From NCBI GenBank assembly GCA_013388855.1, contig JACAEM010000021.1, positions 1 through 51,268 of the forward strand: a stretch of DNA of 51,268 nt, in the 5' to 3' direction. Under the pieces are notes generated by a model. The model was not told where the DNA came from, made no database searches, and was given only the letters and a program-made list of their open reading frames with translations. Positions 1,596-34,046 of the stretch are shown piece after piece. Both the position numbers and the translations under genes were made by a program. Source of the stretch: Chloroflexota bacterium. GTDB lineage: Bacteria > Chloroflexota > Anaerolineae > Anaerolineales > Villigracilaceae. The number at the start of each line of letters is the position of its first letter. Positions within the stretch are counted from its first letter, which is position 1.

Positions 1596-3443
1596 ATGCC
1601 CAATATAAAATTTCTTGACTTAATTTCCACAGACACCCTCCTCGCCGACGGCGCGATGGGCACCATGCTCCATGCGCGCGGCGTCGGCTTCGATCAATGC
1701 TTCGACGAACTCAACCTAACAAATCCCTCTGCTGTGGCAGAGATTCACCGCGAGTACATCGAAGCGGGCGCGCAGTTGATCATCACCAATACGTTCGGCG
1801 CAAATCGCTTCAAACTCACCAAACACGGATTGCAAGACGATGTCGTTGAAATCAATAAAGCGAGCGTGGACCTCGCCAAGCGCGTCGTTGCCGCGTCGTT
1901 CAAGGAGGTGCTGGTGGCGGGGGACGTGGGTCCGCTGGGGGTGAGAATCGCTCCGTTTGGCAGAGTACAGCCTGAGCAGGCGCGCGAAGCGTTCGCGGAG
2001 CAGATCCAAGCGCTGAGCGAAGCGGGGGTTGATCTCATCGTCATCGAAACGTTCAGTGACCTCTACGAAATCCGCGAAGCGATCAACGCCGCGAAACAAA
2101 CGTGCAAGCTTCCCATCGTCGCGTCTGTTACCTTCACGCGCGATGACCGCACTTTGCTGGGCGATGAACCGATGAAAGTGGCGCGAACTCTGCGCGACGC
2201 GGGCGCGGATGTGATCGGCGTCAATTGCTCCGGCGGACCCGCGCAACTATTGCGGTTGCTTAAACAAATGAAACAAGCTGTGCCTGACGGGAAGTTTTGG
2301 GTCAAGCCGAACGCAGGTTGGCCTGAACAGGTCGGTGGGCGAATCATGTATCCCGCCGACGCGGAATACTTCGGCGATTACGCGCTGTCGTTCCGCGAAA
2401 GCGGCGCCTGTGTGGTTGGCGGGTGTTGCGGTACGACACCACAACACATTACAGTGATGAAAAAAGCGCTGGCAACTTCAGAATATTCTCCTGTGTTGAT
2501 CCAAACTCCGGACATTTTTGAAACCTCTGAAACGCCGGATGCGGAGCCGCCAACGCAATTCGCACAAAAACTGGGACGCGGCGAATTTGCGATCTCTGTT
2601 GAAATGGATCCGCCGCGCGGTCTCTCAACCCACAAACTGATTGCAGGCGCTTCGCTCCTCGCCGACGCGGGCGCGGACGTTATCAACGTCGCCGACTCTC
2701 CGATGGCGCGCATGAGGATGTCCGCCTGGGCGGTATGCGACGTGGTGCAGCGCAAGGTCGGCATTGAAACGACCCTGCACTTTCCCACCCGCGGACGCAA
2801 CCTCCTGCGGGTGCAGGGTGACCTGCTCGCCGCGCACGCGCTCGGCATCCGCAATATCTTTGTGGTGATGGGTGACCCAACCGCCATCGGTGATTATCCC
2901 GAAGCGATGGACAATTACGACCTCGTCCCCTCGGGCCTCATCAAACTCATCAAGCAGGGATTCAACGAAGGTGTGGATCATTCCGGCACGAGCATTGGTC
3001 AGCCGACTAATTTCTTCGTCGGCGCGGCGCTTAATCTTTGCCCGTCTGACTTGGAGAACGAAATCAAGAACCTGCACCGCAAAGTAAAGGCGGGCGCGGA
3101 TTTCTTCCTCACGCAGCCTGTCTATCGCCCTGAAGATGGACCGAGACTGCTCGAAGCCTACGAAGCCAGGCATGGCAAACTGGACAAGCCAATCCTTGTC
3201 GGTATCCTGCCATTGGTCAGCGTCAAACATGCCAATTTCCTGCATCATGAGGTGCCAGGCATCTTCATCCCGGACGAGGCGCGGAAACGGATCGAAGCCG
3301 CGGGCGAGGACGGACCCAAGGCCGGGGTGGAGATCGCGGTCGAGTTGATTGACCAACTCAAGGCGTGGGCGGGAGGCGTCTATATCATGCCTCAGTTTCA
3401 CAAGTTTGATATGGTCGCTGAAATCATCGAAGCGGTACAATAG
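1596..3443 (+). CDS. Bifunctional homocysteine S-methyltransferase / 5,10-methylenetetrahydrofolate reductase
   Basis: A 615-residue fusion. Residues 1-290 form a homocysteine methyltransferase barrel (LADGAMGTML, ITNTFGAN) with zinc-ligand cysteines Cys211 (GVNCSGG) and Cys277/278 (GGCCGTT). Residues about 325-615 form a MetF-type flavin reductase that makes 5-methyl-THF (ISVEMDPPRG, VVMGDPT, FFLTQPVY). The architecture is that of Bacillus YitJ. It starts 5 bp after metH and is surely co-transcribed. It therefore supplies the methyl donor for MetH and could also supply the homocysteine-binding domain if the MetH upstream of the window lacks one. That last point is inference. Confidence 0.93.
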   Translation: MPNIKFLDLISTDTLLADGAMGTMLHARGVGFDQCFDELNLTNPSAVAEIHREYIEAGAQLIITNTFGANRFKLTKHGLQDDVVEINKASVDLAKRVVAASFKEVLVAGDVGPLGVRIAPFGRVQPEQAREAFAEQIQALSEAGVDLIVIETFSDLYEIREAINAAKQTCKLPIVASVTFTRDDRTLLGDEPMKVARTLRDAGADVIGVNCSGGPAQLLRLLKQMKQAVPDGKFWVKPNAGWPEQVGGRIMYPADAEYFGDYALSFRESGACVVGGCCGTTPQHITVMKKALATSEYSPVLIQTPDIFETSETPDAEPPTQFAQKLGRGEFAISVEMDPPRGLSTHKLIAGASLLADAGADVINVADSPMARMRMSAWAVCDVVQRKVGIETTLHFPTRGRNLLRVQGDLLAAHALGIRNIFVVMGDPTAIGDYPEAMDNYDLVPSGLIKLIKQGFNEGVDHSGTSIGQPTNFFVGAALNLCPSDLENEIKNLHRKVKAGADFFLTQPVYRPEDGPRLLEAYEARHGKLDKPILVGILPLVSVKHANFLHHEVPGIFIPDEARKRIEAAGEDGPKAGVEIAVELIDQLKAWAGGVYIMPQFHKFDMVAEIIEAVQ

Positions 3444-18974: not shown

Positions 18975-20255
<1,281 letters not shown>

Positions 20256-22584: not shown

Positions 22585-23664
22585 ATGACAACCCCTCACC
22601 CTCACTCCCCCACCCTTCTCAAACCTGCCAAACCCGTCGGCATTATCGGCTATGGCGCGTATGTGCCGCGATACCGCTTGCCTGCGAAGGAAGTCGCGCG
22701 CGTATGGACCGGCGGCAAAGGCGGACTCCCCATTAAAGAGAAAGCCGTCCCCGGGCTGGACGAAGACGTCATCACCATGTCCATTGAAGCGGCGCGCAAC
22801 GCCATGAAACGCGCCCAAATTGATCCGACGGAACTGCGGGCGGTCTGGGTCGGGTCGGAGTCCCACCCTTATGCGGTGAAACCAACTTCCACCTTAGTCG
22901 CTGAAGCGATTGGCGCCGTCCCCAACACACAAGCCGCCGACTGGGAGTTCGCCTGCAAGGCTGGCACCGAAGCGCTCGTCGCTGCGATGGGACTGGTCGG
23001 CTCGGGCATGGGCAAGTACGCCATGGCAATCGGCATGGACACCGCACAAGGCAAACCCGGCGACGCGCTCGAATACACCGCAGGCGCGGGCGGCGGCGCG
23101 TACATCGTCGGTCCCGCCGAAGAGTCGCTGGCGGTGATCAACGCCTCGTATTCGTACGTCACCGACACGCCCGATTTCTGGCGGCGTGAATATCAAAAAT
23201 ATCCTGAGCACGGCATGCGCTTTACCGGCGAGCCAGCCTACTTCAAGCACATCACCGAAGCCGCCACGCATCTGATGGAAGCAAGCGGCACCACCGCCAA
23301 GGACTACAAGTGGGCGGTCTTCCACCAGCCCAACACGAAATTCCCCCAACGCGTCGCGGCAGGGCTCGGCTTCAAGATGGAACAAATCGAACCTGGACTC
23401 TTAGTCCCTGTAATTGGGAACACCTATGCAGGTGCAGCAATCATTGGATTGACTGCGGTTCTCGACATCGCCCAGCCCGGAGATCGGATTCTCGTCGTCT
23501 CATTCGGAAGTGGGGCCGGCTCCGACGCCTTCGACATCACCGTCACGGACGCCGCTCCGCTCCGCGCGGGACTGGCGACGAAGACCCAGGAATACATCGC
23601 CCGCCGTACGGAGATTGATTACGCAACGTATGTGCGCTATCGCGGCAAGTTACAAATGAAATAG
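22585..23664 (+). CDS. Hydroxymethylglutaryl-CoA synthase (archaeal-type)
   Basis: A 359-residue thiolase-fold enzyme that condenses acetyl-CoA and acetoacetyl-CoA to HMG-CoA. Catalytic Cys124 lies in [10 protein letters not shown], the catalytic His in [12 protein letters not shown], and the C-terminal loop is [12 protein letters not shown]. Length and motifs match the archaeal branch (about 350 residues) rather than eukaryotic or Gram-positive HMGS. The first 14 residues ([14 protein letters not shown]) are unusual and Pro/His-rich; the conserved core begins at [15 protein letters not shown]. Confidence 0.95.
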
Positions 23665-23669
23665 AAACA

Positions 23670-23705
23670 GTAATTGGTAAATGGTAATTACCATTTACCA
23701 ATTAC
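23670..23705. repeat. 36-bp perfect palindrome just upstream of the esterase start
   Basis: Bases 23670-23687 are the exact reverse complement of 23688-23705 (GTAATTGGTAAATGGTAA then the complement), with no loop. It ends 11 bp before the chosen ATG at 23717, so the transcript would fold next to the ribosome-binding region. Confidence 0.9.
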
Positions 23706-23716
23706 CAGTTCCCACT

Positions 23717-24688
23717 ATGGCATTCTTCGACCTCCCTCTCGACCAACTCAAAACCTACCTTCCCGCCCGCGAGGAACCCGCCGACTTCGACTCTTTTTGG
23801 CAAGCCACCCTCGAGGAAGCGCGAACATTCCCACTCAATGCCACCTTCGAAAAAGTGGATTACGGTCTTGTCGCCCAGGAAACTTTCGATGTCACCTTCA
23901 ACGGATTCGGCGGACAACCCGTCAAAGGCTGGTTGATTCTTCCCAAGCAACGAAACGGCAAACTCCCGTGCGTTGTCGAATTCATCGGCTACGGCGGCGG
24001 ACGTCAATTCGGCTTCGACTGGCTCCTGTGGGCGAGCGCGGGCTACGCTCACTTCGTCATGGATACACGCGGACAAGGTAGCACCTGGTCTGCGGGCGAC
24101 ACGCCCGATTTATATGCAGATGGCGGCAACGCCCACTACCCTGGCAGTATGACCAAAGGTATTCTCGATCCGAAGCATTATTATTATCGCCGTGTGTTTA
24201 CAGATGCTGTCCGCGCTATCGAAGCGGCGCGCTCTCATGAAGCCGTGGACGCGACGCAGGTCGCCGTCACCGGAGGCTCGCAGGGCGGAGGCATCACCAT
24301 CGCCGCGGCGGGACTGGTCCCTGATGTGGTCGCCGCCATGCCCGATGTGCCGTTCCTTTGCCACTATCGTCGCGCCACTGAATTGGTAGACACCTATCCC
24401 TACAAAGAGATTGCCGAGTACTGTCACGTCCATCGCGATAAGGTCGATACAGTTTTCAACACGCTCTCGTACTTTGATGGCGTTAACTTCTCGGCAAGAG
24501 CCAAAGCCAATACCTTGTTCTCCGTTGGTTTAATGGATCAAGTCTGCCCGCCCTCGACCGTCTATGCCGCCTACAATCATTGGACTGGCAAAAAGGACAT
24601 CAAGGTCTATCCCTACAACGGTCACGAAGGCGGCGGAAGTTTTCAGACGCTGGAGAAGGTGAAGTTTTTGAAGAACATTTTTGGGTGA
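23717..24688 (+). CDS. Acetyl xylan esterase / cephalosporin-C deacetylase family (AXE1) hydrolase
   Basis: An alpha/beta-hydrolase of about 323 residues from the ATG at 23717 ([16 protein letters not shown]). The upstream ATG would place the palindrome inside the coding region. Family marks are [51 protein letters not shown], the nucleophile elbow TGGSQGGGI, and NGHEGGG with the catalytic His near the end. No signal peptide is seen, so it acts inside the cell on acetylated sugars or small esters. It separates HMGS from the thiolase-like gene. Confidence 0.93.
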
Positions 24689-24741
24689 ACCCGGAGGTGC
24701 GTTCACAAGTAAGCACGGAAGTGTGTATCGATATCTTCAAT

Positions 24742-25122
24742 ATGAGAAATTCCATCCTTGCTGCCATCTTATCCTTAATCATCGCTGGCTGTTCTGCAAA
24801 ACCGACAGAAGCGCCTGTCCTTGCTGATTCCACTTTCTCCGCTCAGGCACTGCTCGACACGAATAATAACGGGCAGATCGACTCAGAAGATACGCCCGTT
24901 GCGGATGCCATCTTCTATGTTGAAATCAACGGCGTCAAAGCTTTCGGCGATGCCACCGATGAGACAGGTAACGCCTTTATTCTCATCCCCGGCGGTGTGG
25001 AATATCCAGTACGGGTGGGCATGGAATCGCCGAAGGGTAGCACATTGAAATTGATCAATCCTTCACCGGTCACCGTGTCGGCAACGACAGGCACCGTACA
25101 ATTTCTTTTTTCATCAAAGTGA
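24742..25122 (+). CDS. Small lipoprotein with dockerin-like calcium loop
   Basis: About 126 residues from the ATG at 24742. Residues 1-16 are a lipoprotein signal ending in lipobox IIAGC. The mature protein begins with a short linker, then DTNNNGQIDSED, a D-x-N-x-N-G-x-I-D-x-x-D calcium loop as in dockerin and EF-hand repeats, inside a SdrD-B/Cna-B-like beta fold (GNAFILIPGG-x-YPVRVGM). Only one loop is present, so it is not a classic dockerin. A carrier or surface-matrix role is guesswork. The thiolase-like gene starts 6 bp later. Confidence 0.8.
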   Translation: MRNSILAAILSLIIAGCSAKPTEAPVLADSTFSAQALLDTNNNGQIDSEDTPVADAIFYVEINGVKAFGDATDETGNAFILIPGGVEYPVRVGMESPKGSTLKLINPSPVTVSATTGTVQFLFSSK

Positions 25123-25128
25123 GACAAC

Positions 25129-26289
25129 ATGGTAGAAGTCGTTATCGCAGGTATCGGACAAACAGAAGTCGGCGAGCATTGGGACATCGGTCTGCGCGAC
25201 CTGGCCTTTGCCGCCATTCAAGATGCAATCAAAGACGCGGGTGGATTGAAGCCGCAATCGTTATTCGTCGGCAACATGCTCGCGCCCAATCTTTCCAACC
25301 AGGCGCATCTCGGTGTCTTGCTCGCCGATTATGCCGGCCTGCTCGGCATCGAAGCCGTGACCGTCGAAGCCGCGGGCGCCTCGGGCGGCGCGGCGTTGCG
25401 GCAGGGTTATCTTGCCGTCAAAAGTGGCATGGTGGACGTGGCACTCGTCGTCGGCGTGGAAAAGTTCACAGACAAAGTTGGTCCCAATGTGGATGCGGCG
25501 CTCGCCACCACCGGTGACTCAGATTTCGAGTCCATTCACGGCACGACTCCCGCCGCACAAGCCGCCCTGCTCATGAAGCGCTACATGCATGAGTACCAGG
25601 TCCCTGCTGATGGATTCGCAGGGTTCGCGCTCACCGCCCACGCCAACGGGGTTGCCAACAAAGCCGCCATGTTCCGCAAAGCCATCAAACCTGAAACCTA
25701 CGCCAAAGCGGAAATGATCAGCGATCCGCTCAACATGTTCGACATGGCGCCCAATGCGGATGGCGCCGCGGCGCTCGTTCTGACCCGCCGCGACTTACTC
25801 CCGTCCGACTTTTCGCATCCTCTCGTGAAGATTGCCGGCTCCGCTGCCGCATCCGATACACTTGCCCTGCACGACCGCAAAGACATGCTCTACTTCGACA
25901 CCGCGCAACTCTCGGCGGGTAAAGCCATGAAACAGGCAGGCGTGATTCTGGATGACATTGACCTGTTCGAATATCACGATGTCTTCAGCATCTACGCCGC
26001 GCTGCAGCTGGAGGCGGTCGGGTTCGCGGTCAAGGGCAAAGGCTGGAAACTCGCCGCCGATGGTGAGATCGGACTCAAAGGGCGAATCCCCTGTGCAACG
26101 ATGGGAGGCATGAAAGCGCGCGGATTCCCCGGAGGCGCTGCCGGCGTGTATCAGGCCGTTGAAGCAACGCTCCAACTTCGGGGTGGCGCAGAGGCGAACC
26201 AGATCCCGAATGCGAAGACAGCGCTGATTCAGTGTCTTGGCGGTCCGGCATCCACGGCGGTCAGTCACATTTTGCAAAAGGTCGAATAG
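25129..26289 (+). CDS. SCP2/archaeal-type thiolase-like protein with altered active site
   Basis: A 386-residue thiolase-fold protein of the archaeal acetoacetyl-CoA thiolase type that partners HMGS and DUF35. The fold is complete: start VIAGIGQTEVG, LVVGVEKFTD, the HDVFSIYAALQLEAVG His motif, and the C-terminal QCLGGPAST. Two canonical catalytic positions are changed. The nucleophile in the AACASGG motif is Gly83 (codon GGC at 25375-25377), and the GHPxGATG motif reads GFPGGAAG. The NPSGG element reads ATMGG. The C-terminal Cys remains. As written it should not form the usual acyl-Cys intermediate; it may be a scaffold or a different acyltransferase. Confidence 0.88.
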   Translation: MVEVVIAGIGQTEVGEHWDIGLRDLAFAAIQDAIKDAGGLKPQSLFVGNMLAPNLSNQAHLGVLLADYAGLLGIEAVTVEAAGASGGAALRQGYLAVKSGMVDVALVVGVEKFTDKVGPNVDAALATTGDSDFESIHGTTPAAQAALLMKRYMHEYQVPADGFAGFALTAHANGVANKAAMFRKAIKPETYAKAEMISDPLNMFDMAPNADGAAALVLTRRDLLPSDFSHPLVKIAGSAAASDTLALHDRKDMLYFDTAQLSAGKAMKQAGVILDDIDLFEYHDVFSIYAALQLEAVGFAVKGKGWKLAADGEIGLKGRIPCATMGGMKARGFPGGAAGVYQAVEATLQLRGGAEANQIPNAKTALIQCLGGPASTAVSHILQKVE

Positions 26290-26411
26290 ATTTTTTACAA
26301 AAGTACGCCGCAGGGCACAATACGCCCTTGTGTAAGAGACGTTCACTAACGTCGGTTGACGTATGCAAGAGGTCAAATCACGCAAAATCGGGTACAATCA
26401 GGCAGGTTAAA

Positions 26412-26429
26412 AATTATATATAATTTTAG
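26412..26429. repeat. 18-bp AT-only palindrome before the MetV-MetF gene
   Basis: AAAATTATA followed by its exact complement, 15 bp before the ATG at 26444. It contains TATAAT at 26421-26426, so it may be a promoter element or an operator. A second TACAAT lies at 26393-26398. Confidence 0.5.
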
Positions 26430-26443
26430 CCTGAGGAGTCCGA

Positions 26444-27919
26444 ATGCCTGGCTTTACCCCCGGTCGAAGATGGCAGCCCGCTTACTCCCCTTTTCAAAAG
26501 GAGACCTTTGGCGACCGCGCCTTGCAGGTCCTTGAGTACAGCATAAAAGGTCCGTTGTTCGGGTGCCGCATGTGCGGGAATTGTCTTTTGCAGGAGACCG
26601 CGCTCATCTGCCCGATGGAATGCCCGAAAGGCCTGCGTAACGGTCCGTGCGGCGGTTCCACCGCCGAATACTGCTACGTGGATAAAAGCCGGCCCTGTAT
26701 TTGGTACAAAATCTACGAACGCTCATTTAAGTATGGGCGCGAGGAATTATTGCTGGAGGTCCTGCCGCCGCTCGACTGGGAACTGGTGGGACGCGATTCA
26801 TGGGGTGCAATTTTCAGGAACATCCAAAAAATGGGGGTGGGGAAAGTTTTGCGCGGACTGGTTTCTAAAGAAACACGAACTGAAACCTGGGACGGGATCT
26901 TTCGTCCGGTACGTCAGCCGGATTGGTGGAAAGGCGATTCGCTTTACCACCCGCCCGCCTATACTGAACCCGCCTCGGAACTGGAGCGGAGGCTGGCTGC
27001 CGGTGAATTCGTCGTTACAAGCGAGATCACGCCTCCGTTAAGCTCCGCCACCGACAGATTGATTCGCAACATCAAAGCGACCGCTCCCCTTGTAGCGGCG
27101 GTGAATTTTACGGATAACCAATCCGCCACACCGCGCATGACCTCGTGGGCATGCAGTACCGTGGCAATTCAGCAGGGAGCCGAGCCGGTTTTGCAGATGT
27201 CTGCACGCAATCGCTCGCGGGGAAGCCTGCAAAGCGAAATCATCGGTGCAACGGCATTGGGAGTTCGTAATGTATTATGCGTCACCGGCGACAGCGCCAA
27301 GCTCTCCCCCTCCCCGCGCGACAACATGCAGATCAACGACCTCGACGCCGTCCAAATGTTGTGGGTCCTGCGCCGTATGCGCGATGAGGGAAAATATCTC
27401 GATGGGCGTGAGATCAAGAATCCGCCCAAGTTCTTCCTCGGCGCGGCGGCATCACCATTTTCGTCCAACCCGAAGTTTCAGGCGCTGCGCGAGCAAAAAA
27501 AGGTCAATGCGGGAGCGCAATTCTTCCAAACCAACTTAATCTTCAATGTGGACGGTATGGAGGTGTGGCTAAACGAGCTTGCCAAGCGAAATATTCTGGA
27601 TAAGGTTTATATTCTGGCGGGCGTGACACCCATCAAGAGTTTCAAGATGGCGCAAAGGCTGGCGGAAGTGCCGGGCGTGCATCTCCCCCAAGAGGTTCTT
27701 CAACGCATGGAAATCGCGGATAAGTCAGGCAATGCGCAGGAGGAAGGCGTTCAGATTGCGCTGGAAATTATCGGTCGAATCAAGGCGTACAGAAATCAGG
27801 GAATCCACGGAATCCATCTCATGCCCGTCGGTTGGGATGAAATCGTGCCGCGAATCGTCACCGAGGCAGGGCTGATACCGGAGCAGAACGTTGTCCAAGA
27901 ACTGGTTCCTGCTCATTAG
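26444..27919 (+). CDS. MetV-MetF type methylenetetrahydrofolate reductase fusion
   Basis: A 491-residue protein. The N-terminal 170 residues are an MTHFR_C/MetV-type zinc or FeS domain with many Cys (GCRMCGNCLLQ, CPMECPKGLRNGPCGG, then CYV and CIWY). Residues about 190-490 are a MetF TIM barrel (VVTSEITPP, VLCVTGDS, FFQTNLIFNVDGM, HLMPVGWDE). In acetogens MetV and MetF are separate subunits of the Wood-Ljungdahl methylene-THF reductase; here they are one chain. It is the second MetF domain in the window, after 1596-3443. The electron donor is unknown. Confidence 0.92.
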   Translation: MPGFTPGRRWQPAYSPFQKETFGDRALQVLEYSIKGPLFGCRMCGNCLLQETALICPMECPKGLRNGPCGGSTAEYCYVDKSRPCIWYKIYERSFKYGREELLLEVLPPLDWELVGRDSWGAIFRNIQKMGVGKVLRGLVSKETRTETWDGIFRPVRQPDWWKGDSLYHPPAYTEPASELERRLAAGEFVVTSEITPPLSSATDRLIRNIKATAPLVAAVNFTDNQSATPRMTSWACSTVAIQQGAEPVLQMSARNRSRGSLQSEIIGATALGVRNVLCVTGDSAKLSPSPRDNMQINDLDAVQMLWVLRRMRDEGKYLDGREIKNPPKFFLGAAASPFSSNPKFQALREQKKVNAGAQFFQTNLIFNVDGMEVWLNELAKRNILDKVYILAGVTPIKSFKMAQRLAEVPGVHLPQEVLQRMEIADKSGNAQEEGVQIALEIIGRIKAYRNQGIHGIHLMPVGWDEIVPRIVTEAGLIPEQNVVQELVPAH

Positions 27920-27936
27920 CATGAGGGCTCCCTGCT

Positions 27937-29991
27937 CTATAATTTGATCGTTTCTGAATTCACTTTCAATAATTTCCCATCTTTCTCTACAACATCGTTC
28001 GCAAAACCAAAGAAACTCCAAAACGTGACCTGCGGCTGATGCGCCTCGAGCATTACGGAAATTGCCGGCTCTTTGTGACCGTAATACTTCGACCTCCAGC
28101 CGCGCGTGGAGTGGGCATCCGCGCGGACAATGGAGAACCTGCCACCGCCATTGGTCATTCCAACCTGTAGCTTGTATGCCATTTCGTTTAACCGCAGTAC
28201 AACTTCATTTCCCTGCTGCTCGAAGGGCAAATCCTCCAGCAGCCAATGGAGCGCGTAACGATGCGGCTGATCGGCATCGAGCGTGTCAATCACCAGCCAG
28301 CGGTCGCCTTCCAGCGCCATGACGGTTCGCTTGTGAGATACAGGTTTATAACCATCGTGTTCGCCCCGCCAAATACCTTTGTCATGCTTGATGACTTTCC
28401 CCTTTGACCAGTTCGTCCACGTGAAGCGGCTGACCAGGGTCATTTGGTCTTTGCCGTCCACAGTGACGGTATTGTGTGCAGAGGTGCGCGCCAAGCCGTT
28501 CCGCCAGATGCCATATCCACTATAGAGGTAGGTGCCTGCATCAATGGCGAGGTTATGGCCGTGCATCCACAAATCCACATGGAGTTGGTCAGCGTGGGAG
28601 GGGCGGGATGTGAAATCGGTGCAGCGGATAACGGCGCGGGAGTTCGCGTTGCAGAGGAGGTAAATCCCACCATAAGAGAAGGAAAGTTCTCCCTCCCCCC
28701 CGCCTCCCCTCCTGCTGGGAGAGAGAGACTCTGTTCCACACAACCAAAGTAGATCTTCATCCCAGGGTCCGGGGTCGAAGAGGCGCTCACCCATGGTAAT
28801 GTACCAGCCCAATTGCAACAGCGGACGGTAATCGGTGAAGTCGCAGTTGTTGAGCGGCAGGATGAGGGCGCCGTCGTTGGAACCGTAAACGGGCATCTCC
28901 CCTATTTTCGAGTTGAGGAGATGGGAGAGATAGCTAACAGACTTGGTAACTGATGTTCGGAATGGATCGGTAAATGGCGATTGGTAAATTTCGCTCAGGC
29001 GGATGGCATACAGATAAATATGCAAAATGAAACGATGGTAGTTGAGGGAATACATTGAGTAACTACCATCAGGGAAGATTTGATTTGCCGCTTCCTGCTC
29101 AAGGAGTCGTTTTCCCAGAGATAAATACTTTTCGGCATATTTGAGTTCGGGAAAGAGGAGACCAATCATCCATAAGCCGAAGGCCTCGCTGATGGTGTGG
29201 TTGCTTCGCGTGGAGATGGCGTAGTCAATGTTCTTGTGAATACGTTCGGCTTGGACAGCGACATAGAGAATGAAGTCTTCTTTTCGTTTGGGAGTTGTAG
29301 TTGGGGAGTTGAGAAAGGCATGATAACCGAATACCCATGCCATGAGGCGGAGGGCAATTTCTTGCCCGTCCATCCAATTGGGGCCAGTATTGGGAGGGTT
29401 GTGTTGCGCCCAGTCTTCGACGAGAGTCCAAAAGGCTTCAGGGTATTTTTCATCACCGCTGGCGGCGTAGGCGCGAACAAGGGTGTAAACAAAGGCGAAA
29501 CGATTGGGTTCCCAGATGAATTTGATGTCAGTGATGGAGTCATCGGGGATTTGGGACCAATGCCTGTTCATGTCGCTCGGAGTGGAGCGAAGGGTGTCTG
29601 CTTGCGGGAGGAGAGTTCTTTCGCCATCGCTCAGGATAAAATCACTATAGTAGTCTTTATGCCAATTGGGAGGAAAATCCGTTTTTAGCCATTCATGGGC
29701 AAAATATTTGATTTCGCCGTTGAGGAGGCGGTCGGCTTCTTCGACCGCGGTTTGGGGATTCCAGGGAACGTTGCTTAGGTCTGGTCCCGATACGAACGGG
29801 AAAAACACCCGTTTTGCTGGACTGGTGATTTTATTTGAGGTGAGGTTCTTATAATCACTCCACCTACCGATTGGCATCTGCCAGCGGATGAGTCTCGTGC
29901 GGAGGCGAAAAGCATAGGTGAGGCGAAAGATGGACCAACGGAGTCCAAGTTCTCGGTAGAGTGAAGCGAATGTCCGGAATTTAGTTAACAT
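27937..29991 (-). CDS. Heparinase II/III-like (alginate lyase family) protein of a polysaccharide cluster
   Basis: A 684-residue protein. Residues about 60-390 form the helical toroid (GPNWMDGQEIALRLMAWVFGYH, ISTRSNHTISEAFGLWMIG), and residues 450-684 the beta-sandwich with HADQLHVDLWMHGHNLAIDAGTYLYSGYG and SAHNTVTVDG, where the lyase His residues lie. Such genes are frequent in exopolysaccharide clusters, where they probably trim uronic-acid polymers. No signal peptide is visible, unlike secreted lyases. A GC-rich repeat is inserted in frame near the junction (ESLSPSRRGGGGEGE, 28689-28733). The start overlaps the WecA-like gene by 11 bp. Confidence 0.9.
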   Translation of the reverse strand: MLTKFRTFASLYRELGLRWSIFRLTYAFRLRTRLIRWQMPIGRWSDYKNLTSNKITSPAKRVFFPFVSGPDLSNVPWNPQTAVEEADRLLNGEIKYFAHEWLKTDFPPNWHKDYYSDFILSDGERTLLPQADTLRSTPSDMNRHWSQIPDDSITDIKFIWEPNRFAFVYTLVRAYAASGDEKYPEAFWTLVEDWAQHNPPNTGPNWMDGQEIALRLMAWVFGYHAFLNSPTTTPKRKEDFILYVAVQAERIHKNIDYAISTRSNHTISEAFGLWMIGLLFPELKYAEKYLSLGKRLLEQEAANQIFPDGSYSMYSLNYHRFILHIYLYAIRLSEIYQSPFTDPFRTSVTKSVSYLSHLLNSKIGEMPVYGSNDGALILPLNNCDFTDYRPLLQLGWYITMGERLFDPGPWDEDLLWLCGTESLSPSRRGGGGEGELSFSYGGIYLLCNANSRAVIRCTDFTSRPSHADQLHVDLWMHGHNLAIDAGTYLYSGYGIWRNGLARTSAHNTVTVDGKDQMTLVSRFTWTNWSKGKVIKHDKGIWRGEHDGYKPVSHKRTVMALEGDRWLVIDTLDADQPHRYALHWLLEDLPFEQQGNEVVLRLNEMAYKLQVGMTNGGGRFSIVRADAHSTRGWRSKYYGHKEPAISVMLEAHQPQVTFWSFFGFANDVVEKDGKLLKVNSETIKL
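28689..28733. repeat. GC-rich repeat read in frame in the heparinase-like gene
   Basis: On the minus strand CTCTCTCCC, a short loop and GAGGGGAGGCGGGG, then GGGAGGGAG, the order of elements in the metH copies but with weaker arms. It lies between the helical domain and the beta-sandwich and adds SPSRRGGGGEGE. Confidence 0.65.
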
Positions 29992-30997
29992 TCTTTAACC
30001 GGGAAACGTGCCGGGCAAGAAGAATCCAGATAAGCGGAAGTCCCAAAATGATCAAGGGGGGAGCGTAAGGTCGTCCCCATGACCAGGCATAGGAAAGAAT
30101 GCCTGCAAGCAGGGTCAGCAGGATGTATAGGAGGCTGACAGTGGAGTGTTTATATCCGCCAATGACGAGGCGTTGATAGAGGTGTGTGCGATGTGCGGCC
30201 AACAGTTTTTCGCGGCGAAGGGCGCGGCGAATGAACGTGACGCCCGCGTCCATGATGAACGTCCACATCAGGAGCGTGCCGAGCATGAGAGCGTCGCCGC
30301 CTTCCGTAGCAGAGAGCAACGGCAAGACGGCAAAGGTGTAGCCGAGGAAAGTGCTGGCAACATCGCCCATGAAAATTTTCGCGGGGTGCCAATTATGACC
30401 GAGAAATCCCAGGCTGCCTGCAGCAATGGCAAGGGCAATCCAGAACACAAAATTGTTGTTCATATTCGAGGCAAGCATCATCCAGCCGAGTGCGCCCGCG
30501 AACGCCACGCCGCCTGCAATGCCATCGATACCGTCCATGAAATTGTAGGCATTGGTAAGGCCGACGATCCACAGGAATGTAATGACGATGCCTACAATAC
30601 CCAAATGCAGTTCACCGAAGAGTGGGATGGTGACAACCTTGAAATATCCCAAACCATAAATTGAGACCGCCGCGACGAGTCCCTGCACGGCGAGACGGAT
30701 GCGCGTCGAGAGTGAATGGACGTCATCGCGCCAGCCGAGATATGCAATGACCGCGCCGCAGAAGAGGTAAATCAGCGCATGGCCGACTTCCGCTTCTCCC
30801 ATTGCCCATACGCCTGCTCCCGAGCCAAGCACGCCAAGCACGATCGCCAGCCCTCCACCACGCGGCGTGGGCAGGGAGTGTGAACTCCGTTCGTTGGGAT
30901 GATCAAGGATCTGGCGCTGTTCTGCATAACGACGGATAATCCATACCCCAAGATAGGAGAGGAGGGTAATGACAATGAAGAAAAGGATGGAAGTCAT
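29981..30997 (-). CDS. Undecaprenyl-phosphate glycosyl-1-phosphate transferase (WecA/MraY superfamily)
   Basis: A 338-residue membrane enzyme with about ten helices that loads the first sugar-1-phosphate onto undecaprenyl phosphate, starting a surface polysaccharide. Diagnostic motifs are HSLPTPRGGG (near residue 46), LGWRDDVHSL (Asp-Asp), NAYNFMDGIDG (Mg-binding), FMGDVAS and the C-terminal HRTHLYQRLVIGG. The last is typical of WecA/WbpL rather than MraY. With the GT4, epimerase and heparinase-like genes it defines a polysaccharide cluster. Confidence 0.94.
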   Translation of the reverse strand: MTSILFFIVITLLSYLGVWIIRRYAEQRQILDHPNERSSHSLPTPRGGGLAIVLGVLGSGAGVWAMGEAEVGHALIYLFCGAVIAYLGWRDDVHSLSTRIRLAVQGLVAAVSIYGLGYFKVVTIPLFGELHLGIVGIVITFLWIVGLTNAYNFMDGIDGIAGGVAFAGALGWMMLASNMNNNFVFWIALAIAAGSLGFLGHNWHPAKIFMGDVASTFLGYTFAVLPLLSATEGGDALMLGTLLMWTFIMDAGVTFIRRALRREKLLAAHRTHLYQRLVIGGYKHSTVSLLYILLTLLAGILSYAWSWGRPYAPPLIILGLPLIWILLARHVSRLKNVN

Positions 30998-31306
30998 TGG
31001 GATGATTTTAACGGAGAATTGGAGAATTACGCTTCACGCTTGATTGAGGCTGATACGGTTTCGACGGGCCTTTTCCCATACCATTCTGCAAATCTTGGGC
31101 TCCACAACCACGAACAATTTGCCCATCGGATAGCAATTGCGCCTAAAGGGGGTCGCGGGCGCTCCATTCAAGGAGATACAGACCCGATCCTCGTCCAAGA
31201 TCAGCGCAGGCGGTTGGTCACGGTCTTCCCTTTTCGCAGGGAGATGTGATACGTCCAGTTCATGAGTATTTTTCCTCAGCGTCTTCGACACCTGTCATCC
31301 ACAATA
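30998..31306. other. 309-bp gap without a convincing gene
   Basis: No supported gene or hairpin is seen. An 85-codon frame on the minus strand (31034-31291) has no recognisable domain or ribosome-binding site. GAGAATTGGAGAATTACG near 31014-31031 resembles short repeats seen elsewhere in the window. It may be the remnant of a lost cluster gene. Confidence 0.4.
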
Positions 31307-32164
31307 TCAAGTTTCACACTCAATGCTTATTCCCTCCTCAAACGAAAGCGGGGTAAATCCAAAATCCCTTTGCGCTTCAACGTAGTCGAAATTCTTGTCT
31401 TCGTTCAGACGCAAAACCTGCTCCAATTTAATAGGGATGGGAATATGAATCCGCTCGAAGAGTCTCAACAGGGAAATAACGAGACTCGAGGGAATATAGA
31501 ATTTCCAGATCTGCCTGTTCAGCGCTTTGGCAATTGTGTCAATGACTTCGTTGTAGGTCAGCGGATGCGCCCCTGCGATGTTGTAACTCTTGCCGATGGT
31601 GGACTCTGAATGCAGGCAACCGAGAACCGCCGCGGCAACATCGTCCACAAAAATAGGCTGCTGCAGATATTTTCCATCGCCGAAAACAGGGACAATCGGC
31701 GACAGGCGCATAAACCGGATCAACCTCCACATGTTGCGGTCGCGTGGACTACCGTAGATCATCGTTGGGCGCAGGATGGTATATTTCAGTTCACTCGTTT
31801 CGATTGCCAGTTCCGCCGCCACACGAACTTTCTTGCTCGAAGCATTCAACCGAGTGAAGATGGCGGTTGTGCTGATAAAAATGGCGCGCTTGATTCCAGC
31901 GTCTTTTGCGGCGCGGATGATCGAGTCCGCGTGACCGAAGCCAAGCGAGGCAATGTTGACAAGCGCGTCTGCACCTTGCATGGCGGAGGTCAGGGATTCA
32001 GTATCAGCGACATCGCCCAACGCCCAGTCGATCTTCAATCCGTTCAGTGGAGAACGGTCACTGGAAGCACGGTACAGACAACGGACTTCAAATCCGTTTT
32101 TGAGGAGGAGTGGGACGACGCGCGAGCCTGTGAATCCCGTTGCGCCTGTGACAAAGATTTTCAT
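31307..32164 (-). CDS. NAD(P)-dependent epimerase/dehydratase (extended SDR)
   Basis: About 285 residues from the ATG at 32164 (MKIFVTGATGFTGSRV); a start five codons further up is possible. The Rossmann motif TGATGFTG opens the protein. Ser/Tyr-region residues are AIFISTTAIF and TILRPTMIYGSPRDRN, where the usual YxxxK is not obvious, so catalysis may be non-canonical. It most likely makes or modifies a nucleotide sugar for the neighbouring glycosyltransferase. It ends 309 bp before the WecA-like gene. Confidence 0.88.
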   Translation of the reverse strand: MKIFVTGATGFTGSRVVPLLLKNGFEVRCLYRASSDRSPLNGLKIDWALGDVADTESLTSAMQGADALVNIASLGFGHADSIIRAAKDAGIKRAIFISTTAIFTRLNASSKKVRVAAELAIETSELKYTILRPTMIYGSPRDRNMWRLIRFMRLSPIVPVFGDGKYLQQPIFVDDVAAAVLGCLHSESTIGKSYNIAGAHPLTYNEVIDTIAKALNRQIWKFYIPSSLVISLLRLFERIHIPIPIKLEQVLRLNEDKNFDYVEAQRDFGFTPLSFEEGISIECET

Positions 32165-32212
32165 AAGAGTTTTTACCATGAAGTGTCACGATACCTAGCG
32201 TTCTTTTACCGT

Positions 32213-33436
32213 TTAGGGCTTCCCAACCAATGTCATGAGCAATTCAAACGTTTCATTCAACTTGTCGCGTCGGTCAAGGTGCTTGACCAGATATTTGCGG
32301 GCGTTTTGTCCCATTTGCCGTACACGACTGGAATCTTTCGAGAGTTCAAGAATTGTCTTCGCCAAGGACTCGTCATCTCCAGGCTGGACATACACTCCCC
32401 CGCCCGACGCCTCGATCAATTGCCGCGAGACCCCGTCAATGACCAGCACAGTCGCACGTCCCGCCGCCATGTAATCAAAAACCTTGTTCGGGTACGTGGT
32501 CCGGAACATCGGAATATCCTGCAAGATGGCCAGGCACACATCCGCAGAAGCGACGATGCCTGGCATCTCTTTTTTCGCGCGCGCGCCGGCAAAAATCACG
32601 TTTGACAGATTCATTTTCCCGGCATCGGCTTGGAGCCGCGCCCGTTCCTTCCCGTCGCCGAACAACACAAAACGGATTCTCCCCTCCTCGTTCAACCGCC
32701 GGGCTGCACGCAGGATCGTATCGATATCGTTCGCCTGCCCCAGCGCTCCCGCATATAACACGACGAATTTCTCCTGCATCCCCAATTCCGCCCGGATCAA
32801 TGAACCGTCCACGTGCGGATTAAACATATCCACGTCTGTCCCATAGGCAATGAACGTGACCTTCTTCTCTGACACGCCCTTTGCAATCATGTATTCCCGA
32901 TAGGCAGGCGAATTCACCAGAATGTGAGTAGCGTGCGCGTACAAAAACCGCTCCAGCCAGCGCGCGAGCGCGATCACTACTGGATTCTTCAATACCCCCA
33001 TGCTCACCCCGAACTCAGGCCACAGATCGCGCACCTCCAGCAGAAACGGCTTACGACGCACGAGCGCCACAAACCATGCCGAAACCGCCTGAAAGATCGG
33101 CGGCGTGGTACCCATTACAAGGTCCACGTTGCGCACCTGAAATGCAGTGTACACTGAACTAAGCATAAAACTGAAAAATGAAACGATACGCCAAAAATAA
33201 CTGCGATGCAGCGCCGGGACAATGTACGAACGCAGCACCCGTACGCCGTTGAAATTCTGCTCGGCAAAAAGCCCCTTGTGCGCTACTGTCCGTTGACCGG
33301 TCTGGTAGTTCAGGTCGCTGGCAACGATGACGAGTTCATGTCCGCGCGATTGCAGAAATTTCGCCATCTCGAAATGACGCGTGTGTCCCGGCTCATTGGG
33401 CGAGACGAAGGCTTGGTTGATTAATAGGATTTTCAT
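32213..33436 (-). CDS. GT4-family glycosyltransferase (WbuB-like)
   Basis: A 407-residue GT-B enzyme. The N-terminal domain carries an opening MKILLINQAFVSPNEPGHTRH, with GT4-type spacing. The C-terminal donor domain has KFVVLYAGALGQANDID, the E-x7-E-like region and PNKVFDYMAAGRATV. Relatives in O-antigen and exopolysaccharide clusters add L-fucosamine or similar sugars, but the substrate here cannot be told. It is the first gene of the minus-strand cluster and starts about 180 bp from the divergent DUF35 gene. Confidence 0.93.
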   Translation of the reverse strand: MKILLINQAFVSPNEPGHTRHFEMAKFLQSRGHELVIVASDLNYQTGQRTVAHKGLFAEQNFNGVRVLRSYIVPALHRSYFWRIVSFFSFMLSSVYTAFQVRNVDLVMGTTPPIFQAVSAWFVALVRRKPFLLEVRDLWPEFGVSMGVLKNPVVIALARWLERFLYAHATHILVNSPAYREYMIAKGVSEKKVTFIAYGTDVDMFNPHVDGSLIRAELGMQEKFVVLYAGALGQANDIDTILRAARRLNEEGRIRFVLFGDGKERARLQADAGKMNLSNVIFAGARAKKEMPGIVASADVCLAILQDIPMFRTTYPNKVFDYMAAGRATVLVIDGVSRQLIEASGGGVYVQPGDDESLAKTILELSKDSSRVRQMGQNARKYLVKHLDRRDKLNETFELLMTLVGKP

Positions 33437-33635
33437 CGGTTGGGATTATAGCATTGGGATGTGGATCCGCTTCAGGCGCAGCCGGAACCGGATTCGCTTC
33501 GAAAAACGTTTCATCCCCGGGAAAAATCCCGTTGGGGTGATTTCCCATCCGATTACACTTCCGAAAGGAAGCCATCTTGAGAGTCTTTGAGAGTCCCGTC
33601 AGATAGAATTACGGTTGCAGAAAGGAAACTTACCT

Positions 33636-34046
33636 ATGGAAATTCCACGACATTGGAGACTTCAGAAACAACGTTATGGGCTGGTTGGTGAAGTTTGCCC
33701 TCATTGCGATTATAAGATCTTCCCCCCGCGCGATGTCTGCCCAAATTGCGGCGACGAAGCCAAGGAACTCTACACTTTTAGCGGCAAAGGCGAGGTGTAT
33801 TCGTACACCACCGTGTATGAAGCCCCCAGCGGGTTCGATGCCACCGCACCCTATACTGTCGCCCTCGTCAAGCTCGAAGAGGGACCGATGGTCACCGCTC
33901 AGTTGACTGATGTGGACAACAGCGCGGTCGAGATCGGCATGCCCGTTGAGATGGTTACCCGCAAGATGAGGAATGATGGAGATGAGAGAGGCCTGATCGT
34001 CTACGGCTACAAATTCAGGCCTCAAAATTTTGTACCCGCCAAATAA
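33636..34046 (+). CDS. DUF35 zinc-ribbon/OB-fold protein, thiolase-HMGS partner type
   Basis: About 136 residues from the ATG at 33636, which has AAAGGAAA upstream (an ATG seven codons earlier is less likely). Rubredoxin-like zinc ribbon: Cys21, Cys24, Cys35, Cys38 (CPHC and CPNC); then an OB fold (GKGEVYSYTTVYEAP, VALVKLEEGPMVTAQL). In archaea this protein bridges thiolase and HMG-CoA synthase and channels acetoacetyl-CoA. Here it is 7-11 kb from those genes and has its own terminator, but it is the best candidate for the same role. Confidence 0.9.
   Translation: MEIPRHWRLQKQRYGLVGEVCPHCDYKIFPPRDVCPNCGDEAKELYTFSGKGEVYSYTTVYEAPSGFDATAPYTVALVKLEEGPMVTAQLTDVDNSAVEIGMPVEMVTRKMRNDGDERGLIVYGYKFRPQNFVPAK

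Follow-up and report, generated by a model that had tools for sequence, protein, structure and literature searches.

The archaeal-type complex of a thiolase, a DUF35 protein and an HMG-CoA synthase (HMGS) is a standard example of an uphill thiolase step that is coupled to a downhill HMGS step via a shared CoA site. Passages of PMC6392133 describe that all three proteins contribute residues to the interface at which CoA binds, DUF35 is presented as the scaffold of the complex in parts of PMC12329534 and PMC6996347, and a shared CoA site as well as transfer between the active sites are mentioned in sections of PMC6392133 and PMC12329534. The thiolase of this complex carries a nucleophilic Cys (Cys85, according to passages of PMC6392133) and a His of the GHP type. 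A three-part architecture is also found in PhlABC (PpATase) of Pseudomonas protegens where, as stated in parts of PMC6392133, the HMGS-like PhlA is retained with its Cys exchanged for Gly, while the thiolase-like PhlC is active. Thiolase folds without thiolase chemistry are represented by Ltp2-ChsH2(DUF35), Sal-Shy(DUF35) and TbSLP, and CtSal is an aldolase that is bound to DUF35 and has Gly at the nucleophile position (both from passages of PMC12329534). Ltp2 and Sal serve steroid side-chain cleavage and not the mevalonate pathway.

Here, we describe a locus of a Chloroflexota genome (4.03 Mb, 46 contigs, 99% complete) in which the thiolase-fold protein is devoid of both catalytic residues. 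The window, i.e., the whole stretch of 51,268 nucleotides that was analysed, contains the same three kinds of genes as the archaeal system (Table 1), and the linkage of HMGS, thiolase and DUF35 spans positions 22585-34046. Its named near relatives, as retrieved by the nearest-loci search, mostly belong to the Anaerolineales. An earlier note on this DNA, made from the sequence alone, had placed an HMGS and a DUF35 protein in the neighbourhood of the thiolase, and both could be located. In the HMGS, the motifs with Cys (FACKAGT), His (FHQPN) and Glu (VGSESHP) are intact, and the DUF35 ORF is the single match above the cut-off of its Pfam model in the entire genome.

Table 1. Position and annotation of the HMGS, thiolase and DUF35 genes and of further genes of the window.
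Feature	Position	Strand	Remarks
HMG-CoA reductase (HMGR)	18975..20255	+	profile match; 5' of HMGS in relatives with compact operon
HMG-CoA synthase (HMGS), archaeal type	22585..23664	+	TIGR00748, 537.6 bits vs cut-off 353.35
AXE1-type esterase	23681..24688	+	between HMGS and thiolase in the window and some relatives
Cys-less thiolase-fold protein, Thiolase_N + Thiolase_C_1, 386 aa	25129..26289	+	ATG start, no internal stop
DUF35 protein, zinc-ribbon Cys4 + OB fold	33615..34046	+	PF01796, 84.8 bits

The AXE1-type esterase, an insertion that is present in 17 of the 80 nearest loci, is not thought to belong to the HMGS/thiolase/DUF35 system. Directly 3' of the thiolase, positions 26444-27919 encode a single chain whose N-terminal part matches DUF5981 and whose C-terminal part matches MTHFR, and the ORF at 1596-3443 resembles, in a reading by eye, a homocysteine methyltransferase/MTHFR fusion.

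In the window thiolase, Gly83 (codon 25375-25377, within VEAAGASGG) replaces the nucleophilic Cys, and Phe333 (codon 26125-26127, within KARGFPGGAAG) replaces the GHP His of GHPxGATG. Both exchanges had been pointed out in the earlier note and hold in the translation as well as in a phmmer alignment, where the two residues align with Cys and His of 7yvy (CASGG, GHPVGATG) and of 6esq (CASGS, GHALGATG). By this alignment, a misaligned motif is rejected. The note was also right about the clean frame and the HD motif, which is kept (FEYHDVFS, with His283 at codon 25975-25977, followed by Asp284). Its third loss, that of NPSGG, was reproduced for the window but means nothing for catalysis: the site reads NPSGG in 6esq, whereas it differs in the Cys-bearing 7yvy and in the Cys-bearing relatives from the Chloroflexota, which mostly have TMGG. 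Because Cys-bearing proteins also do without NPSGG, its absence was rejected as a sign of catalytic loss or decay. The thiolase fold spans the whole length of the protein in both the domain search and the predicted model, and the scores stay below the cut-offs of the NCBIfam thiolase models NF004720 (387.1 bits, cut-off 420) and NF053570 (316.6 bits, cut-off 600).

An AlphaFold model of the single chain, based on 75 aligned proteins of the window and the loci, reached a mean pLDDT of 96.4 and a pTM of 0.95. The best two of 1000 chains compared with it, 6et9 and 6esq, are thiolase chains of the archaeal thiolase/HMGS complex (Z 62, rmsd 1.4-1.5, 383-384 residues), followed by 7yvy (Z 59.6), the SCP2 thiolases of Trypanosoma and Leishmania (Z 56-57) and chains of the PhlC type and of MucABC (Z 54-56). 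Judging from the model, all matched chains share one fold, and the rank of a match should not be taken as proof of a complex. The likeness to the archaeal system thus comprises the kinds of genes, the thiolase fold, the archaeal type of the HMGS and the operon linkage in relatives, while the difference lies in Cys and the GHP-type His, both of which the window protein is without. Among solved sequences, the best score is obtained by the Pyrococcus furiosus thiolase PFC_04095 (7YVY), which shares 49% identity and the TMGG motif with the window protein, but differs in having Cys and the GHP His. In our judgement, the protein is probably a thiolase-fold subunit of the known thiolase/DUF35/HMGS complex that has lost the thiolase reaction, i.e., a pseudoenzyme.

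Among the 80 nearest loci, HMGS was found in the retrieved flank of 76 and DUF35 in that of 30. A compact order HMGR-HMGS-thiolase-DUF35 on one strand is present in Cys-bearing loci (L112, L128, L138) as well as in Cys-less ones (L097, L109, L158), and this order also occurs in deeper members of the family, e.g., L097, L100, L102, L108 and L109. By gene order, the window thiolase is the positional ortholog of the Cys-bearing operon thiolase, and the common order indicates that it descends from it. The statement of the earlier note that a conserved but catalytically changed protein accompanies HMGS and DUF35 thereby gains support at the sequence level, both from this position in the operon and from the archaeal complex chains as top structural matches. 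In the window's family, the operon is often opened by other genes, in the window itself by the AXE1-type esterase and others. Moreover, 31 of 79 thiolases of this family (one of the 79 uncovered at position 83) are not located within 600 bp of an HMGS, which counts against a role as scaffold. In family f49, the Cys-less thiolase of locus L166 (genome G253, motif GADASGG; cf. L227) is encoded on another contig than HMGS and is still retained; its locus of 4.1 kb contains no HMGS or DUF35 match.

At position 83, the 80 nearest loci, which were found with patterns of the window protein and hence are near relatives, show Gly in 78 cases and Cys in one (L112, 53% identical), with one locus not covered. 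The GHP His position is occupied by Phe in 73, by Asn in four and by His in one of them, and is not covered in two. Counting all rows of the window's family including repeats, Gly83 is found in 109 of 109 and Phe333 in 103 of 107. As far as sequence comparison tells, the loss of Cys and GHP His is thus conserved in the family. The earlier note had left room for a mutation or an assembly error, which is refuted for the family by the 78 loci with Gly. The median dN/dS within the window's family amounts to 0.098 for the thiolase (1467 pairs) and 0.078 for HMGS (2015 pairs); this thiolase family is under purifying selection. Outside of it, dN/dS is 0.294 for Cys-less thiolases versus 0.232, i.e., the Cys-less ones evolve somewhat faster. 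That we are dealing with a decaying gene, or with an error of sequencing or assembly, is hardly conceivable: besides the residue loss itself nothing speaks in favour of it, internal stops are absent among the rows listed, and the shared Gly, the proximity of HMGS and the low dN/dS together indicate neither error nor decay. On the other hand, the near-fixed state of Gly83 and Phe333 is unlike free drift and counts against a pseudoenzyme that merely drifts. It may reflect a packing constraint or a function of its own.

Such a function would be at hand if the thiolase fold had been turned into another enzyme with a new reaction, in the manner of the Ltp2 and Sal aldolases with DUF35. Besides the near-fixed Gly83 and Phe333, this explanation can draw on CtSal with its Gly at the nucleophile position and its DUF35 partner, a partner that Ltp2 and Sal have in common with the window system (passages of PMC12329534), and on the fold, since Ltp2 and Sal chains (6ok1, 9myr) match the model at Z 48. 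Yet Ltp2, Sal and TbSLP carry the motif YD[HC][FY], while the window reads HDVF: the catalytic Tyr of YDHF/YDCY corresponds to His283, and the third motif position, which is His in Ltp2 and the catalytic Cys in Sal according to parts of PMC12329534, corresponds to Val285. Over the 80 nearest loci, the position of the catalytic Tyr is occupied by H in 73, F in 3, Y in 2 and D in 2 cases, and membership in the Ltp2/Sal aldolases was rejected because this Tyr is missing. Also, the gene has stayed near HMGS in nearly all of these loci (76 of 80). We therefore regard a new reaction as unlikely for the window protein.

HMGS was found in 306 of 346 genomes of the window's class and, in a sample of 400 genomes from across the phylum, in 99. 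In order to choose regions independently of the thiolase, a survey was anchored on HMGS and covered 80 regions among the matches listed, ordered by likeness to the window HMGS. A thiolase was found in 71 of these, 31 with Cys and 40 without, a share that is no class average because of the ordering by likeness to the window HMGS. The regions lie outside the window's family and mostly outside the genomes already sampled. The residue in place of Cys in these 40 thiolases, again among the matches listed, is most often D (26), followed by E (6), S (3), N (2) and single cases of G, A and Q. The nine HMGS regions from which a thiolase is absent are L207, L210, L216, L219, L222, L227, L236, L247 and L262. 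A further 20 regions yielded 18 thiolases, three of them without Cys, and none of 30 loci found with a Cys-type query is Cys-less. In 30 chosen genomes, 18 of 30 loci are Cys-less, a value that is biased upward since many genomes were picked for a weak match to the Cys-type query; this set includes second thiolases of their genomes (L185, L187) and some other loci without HMGS in the retrieved flank.

Five families outside the window's class (20 regions, L271-L290) exhibit exclusively thiolases without Cys, 19 with Gly and one with Thr. In 16 of these 20, the HD motif is replaced by [ST]DPH, unlike in the window's family, which is a further point for a new reaction and may, from the motif, mark a separate specialisation or a new function in these distant families. 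When solved relatives of the distant-family type were looked for by sequence, the hits were archaeal and SCP2 chains, largely as in the corresponding search with the window protein. Over the surveyed Chloroflexota families, Cys-less thiolases (D, G, E, S, N, Q, A or T) occur in 26 and Cys-bearing ones in 33, with both states in f12.

Trees were calculated after gappy and identical rows had been dropped (143 rows, 181 rows). On the 181-row tree, for which the motif columns were left out and two archaeal Cys-bearing thiolases served as outgroup, the label Cys or Cys-less needs at least 8 changes, three of which are forced by well-supported branches. A topology that holds all 35 Cys-less rows together was rejected (AU p 0.00227; 71 chosen rows, mixture model), and with it a single origin of the Cys-less state. 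The trees thus indicate that Cys was lost more than once, separately, in the phylum. Since both outgroups are Cys-bearing, repeated loss is the simpler direction, and a regain of Cys would be the less parsimonious alternative. Some thiolases show mixed states: L249 (G234) and L303 (G173) have kept Cys, while the GHP His is already Asn (AACCSGA, GNPVGATG), and L239 (G223) has kept Cys and GHP, with TDAS for HDAF. These three are possible intermediates in the loss, as judged from their motifs. In archaea, the thiolase-like ST0096 (4yzo) of Sulfolobus tokodaii apparently carries Ser in place of the nucleophile in the alignment, with GHP retained, and Cys loss may thus have occurred there as well.

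A comparison of 73 Cys-bearing with 70 Cys-less rows, which include some genomes twice, revealed 27 columns that are nearly fixed in the former and variable in the latter. Apart from column 83, which belongs to this set by definition, these are 283, 285 and 286 of the HD-F motif, 333 of the GHP His together with 335 and 338, columns 369 and 374 near the C-terminus, and others without an assigned place, e.g., 2, 11, 50, 113, 125, 128, 141, 145 and 178. Nearly invariant in both sets are 53 columns, and only two, 84 and 351, are conserved in the Cys-less set but variable in the Cys-bearing one, from which we conclude that the Cys-less set has gained no common new catalytic residue. Position 83 itself varies over this set (D, G, E, N, S, Q and others). 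Both findings speak against a new reaction. The earlier note had suggested either a scaffold, serving the transfer of acetoacetyl-CoA, or a new reaction; the scaffold is the part that is best supported, whereas acetoacetyl-CoA transfer and a new reaction found no support of their own, given that position 83 is G, D, E, S, N, Q, A or T.

The same data bear on the question of whether thiolase chemistry persists in residual or altered form, by means of another nucleophile (Asp, Glu) or with the general base alone. Asp is indeed the commonest replacement in the HMGS-anchored survey, and 8 rows with Asp have retained the GHP His. However, the window's family combines the side-chain-less Gly with Phe or Asn in place of the GHP His, and position 83 switches among D, E, N and Q within one well-supported clade (L196, L192, L206, L211, L198), as is expected for a position that no longer takes part in chemistry. 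A remaining thiolase activity of this kind is highly improbable.

With respect to the partner proteins, the picture differs between HMGS and DUF35. Counting each genome once, HMGS proteins beside Cys-less thiolases have the catalytic Cys in 131 of 132 (one gapped), His in 132 of 132 and Glu in 130 of 132 cases (two gapped); beside Cys-bearing thiolases, all three residues are present in 67 of 67. The catalytic residues of HMGS have thus remained intact next to the changed thiolase. In five of the six listed genomes of family f81 (G574, G507, G546, G567, G723), one in-frame TGA lies within the HMGS match, perhaps because this match extends 5' beyond the true start.

The DUF35 gene is retained: it was found in 36 of 37 Cys-less genomes, the exception being G311, in a check of 40 genomes, three of which (G361, G379, G466) have a thiolase of unseen state, and most of the 37 were chosen either as members of the window's family or because no DUF35 had been noticed next to their thiolase. 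Two CxxC motifs were observed in the DUF35 proteins of 58 out of 70 Cys-less loci, one motif in a single locus and none in 11 (L259, L192, L263, L267, L170, L205, L268, L256, L214, L254, L186), while such a loss occurs in 0 of 64 Cys-bearing loci. Several of the ribbon-less proteins are reduced to the OB domain, the N-terminal ribbon being gone (L170, L214, L254, L268). In Sal, it is the zinc finger of DUF35 that gives the substrate cleft of the thiolase-like subunit its shape (passages of PMC12329534), and by this analogy a decay of the ribbon beside a dead thiolase would fit. The two losses are not strictly linked, since the ribbon is also missing in L207 and L210, where DUF35 lies beside HMGS without a thiolase in the region, and the unlinked thiolase of this lineage, seen in one of two genomes (L172), has Cys. 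The zinc-ribbon losses show that in some Cys-less lineages DUF35, too, is undergoing change, and this counts against a role of the thiolase-fold protein as scaffold.

If the complex has lost its thiolase activity, acetoacetyl-CoA has to come from elsewhere. The earlier note had proposed to look for a second, intact thiolase, and the host genome indeed contains three complete classical thiolases plus, on contig 41, an SCP2-type paralog that is 48% identical to the window protein and has intact AACGSGA and GHPVGATG motifs; its locus of 4.1 kb contains no HMGS or DUF35 match. A classical thiolase (TIGR01930) is present in 98 of 99 Cys-less genomes, with G812 as the one without, versus 68 of 82 Cys-bearing genomes (Fisher p 1.4e-4, calculated over related genomes without correction for kinship). 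The link is weaker for families, labelled by database codes and with states compiled by hand: a genome without classical thiolase is included in 1 of 26 Cys-less versus 8 of 33 Cys-bearing families (p 0.064). At least two SCP2-type matches were found in 47 of 77 Cys-less versus 18 of 68 Cys-bearing genomes (p 5e-5), and in 29 of 59 Cys-less genomes outside the window's family (p 0.010), again without kinship correction. These distributions are consistent with Cys being dispensable only in genomes that have another enzyme for this step.

The additional SCP2-type thiolases also raise the question of a mixed thiolase dimer, in which the window protein would be the inactive half and the intact paralog would do the chemistry, comparable to the chain length factor beside a ketosynthase. 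The paralog of the host has the motifs required, and the excess of SCP2-type matches in Cys-less genomes points in the same direction, the Cys state of the extra match having been seen only in L002, L185 and L187. Against this stand the position of the host paralog on another contig, away from HMGS and DUF35, and the 30 of 77 Cys-less genomes that have a single SCP2-type match at E 1e-60, by which an obligatory SCP2-type partner was rejected. A mixed dimer is thus possible in the window's family, but not in general, and as an explanation of the window protein it is improbable.

We return to the preferred reading of the protein as a non-catalytic subunit of the complex. Such a protein would be unable to make acetoacetyl-CoA, presumably still assembles with DUF35 and HMGS, and would be kept because HMGS needs it. 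As in the archaeal complex, the thiolase-fold subunit would contribute to the shared CoA site at the HMGS interface. If this site is made by three proteins, as parts of PMC6392133 describe, removal of the thiolase subunit should damage HMGS, and if HMGS depends on the shared site, the subunit must stay even once its chemistry is gone. Acetoacetyl-CoA would then arrive as a free metabolite from the classical thiolases or the SCP2-type paralog, and the channelling between the thiolase and HMGS active sites would be given up. PhlABC shares with this system the retained subunit with an exchange of the catalytic Cys for Gly, but there the HMGS-like PhlA is dead and PhlC works, such that the window represents the mirror case.

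Known already are a thiolase-fold subunit in a DUF35 complex and thiolase-fold aldolases without Cys. In a search over titles and abstract openings, with subscription papers mostly outside of it, no report of Cys-less thiolases in mevalonate operons was found, and within this scope a Cys-less thiolase inside a mevalonate operon, several times over, appears to be new. For the phylum, we consider it somewhat better than an even chance that the thiolase of the mevalonate complex has repeatedly turned into a pseudoenzyme, and is now an obligatory non-catalytic part of HMGS, needed for its CoA site or activity, in a large share of the HMGS-carrying Chloroflexota.

If this is true, a well-known complex of two coupled enzymes has lost the coupling on several occasions and preserved its architecture. 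The repeated loss of the chemistry with retention of the subunit would mean that the complex can do without the coupling, but not without the architecture. What the complex is for then becomes testable by means of natural Cys-bearing and Cys-less relatives. For many Chloroflexota, the annotation of such genes as acetyl-CoA acetyltransferase, and the pathway reconstructions that depend on it, are probably wrong.
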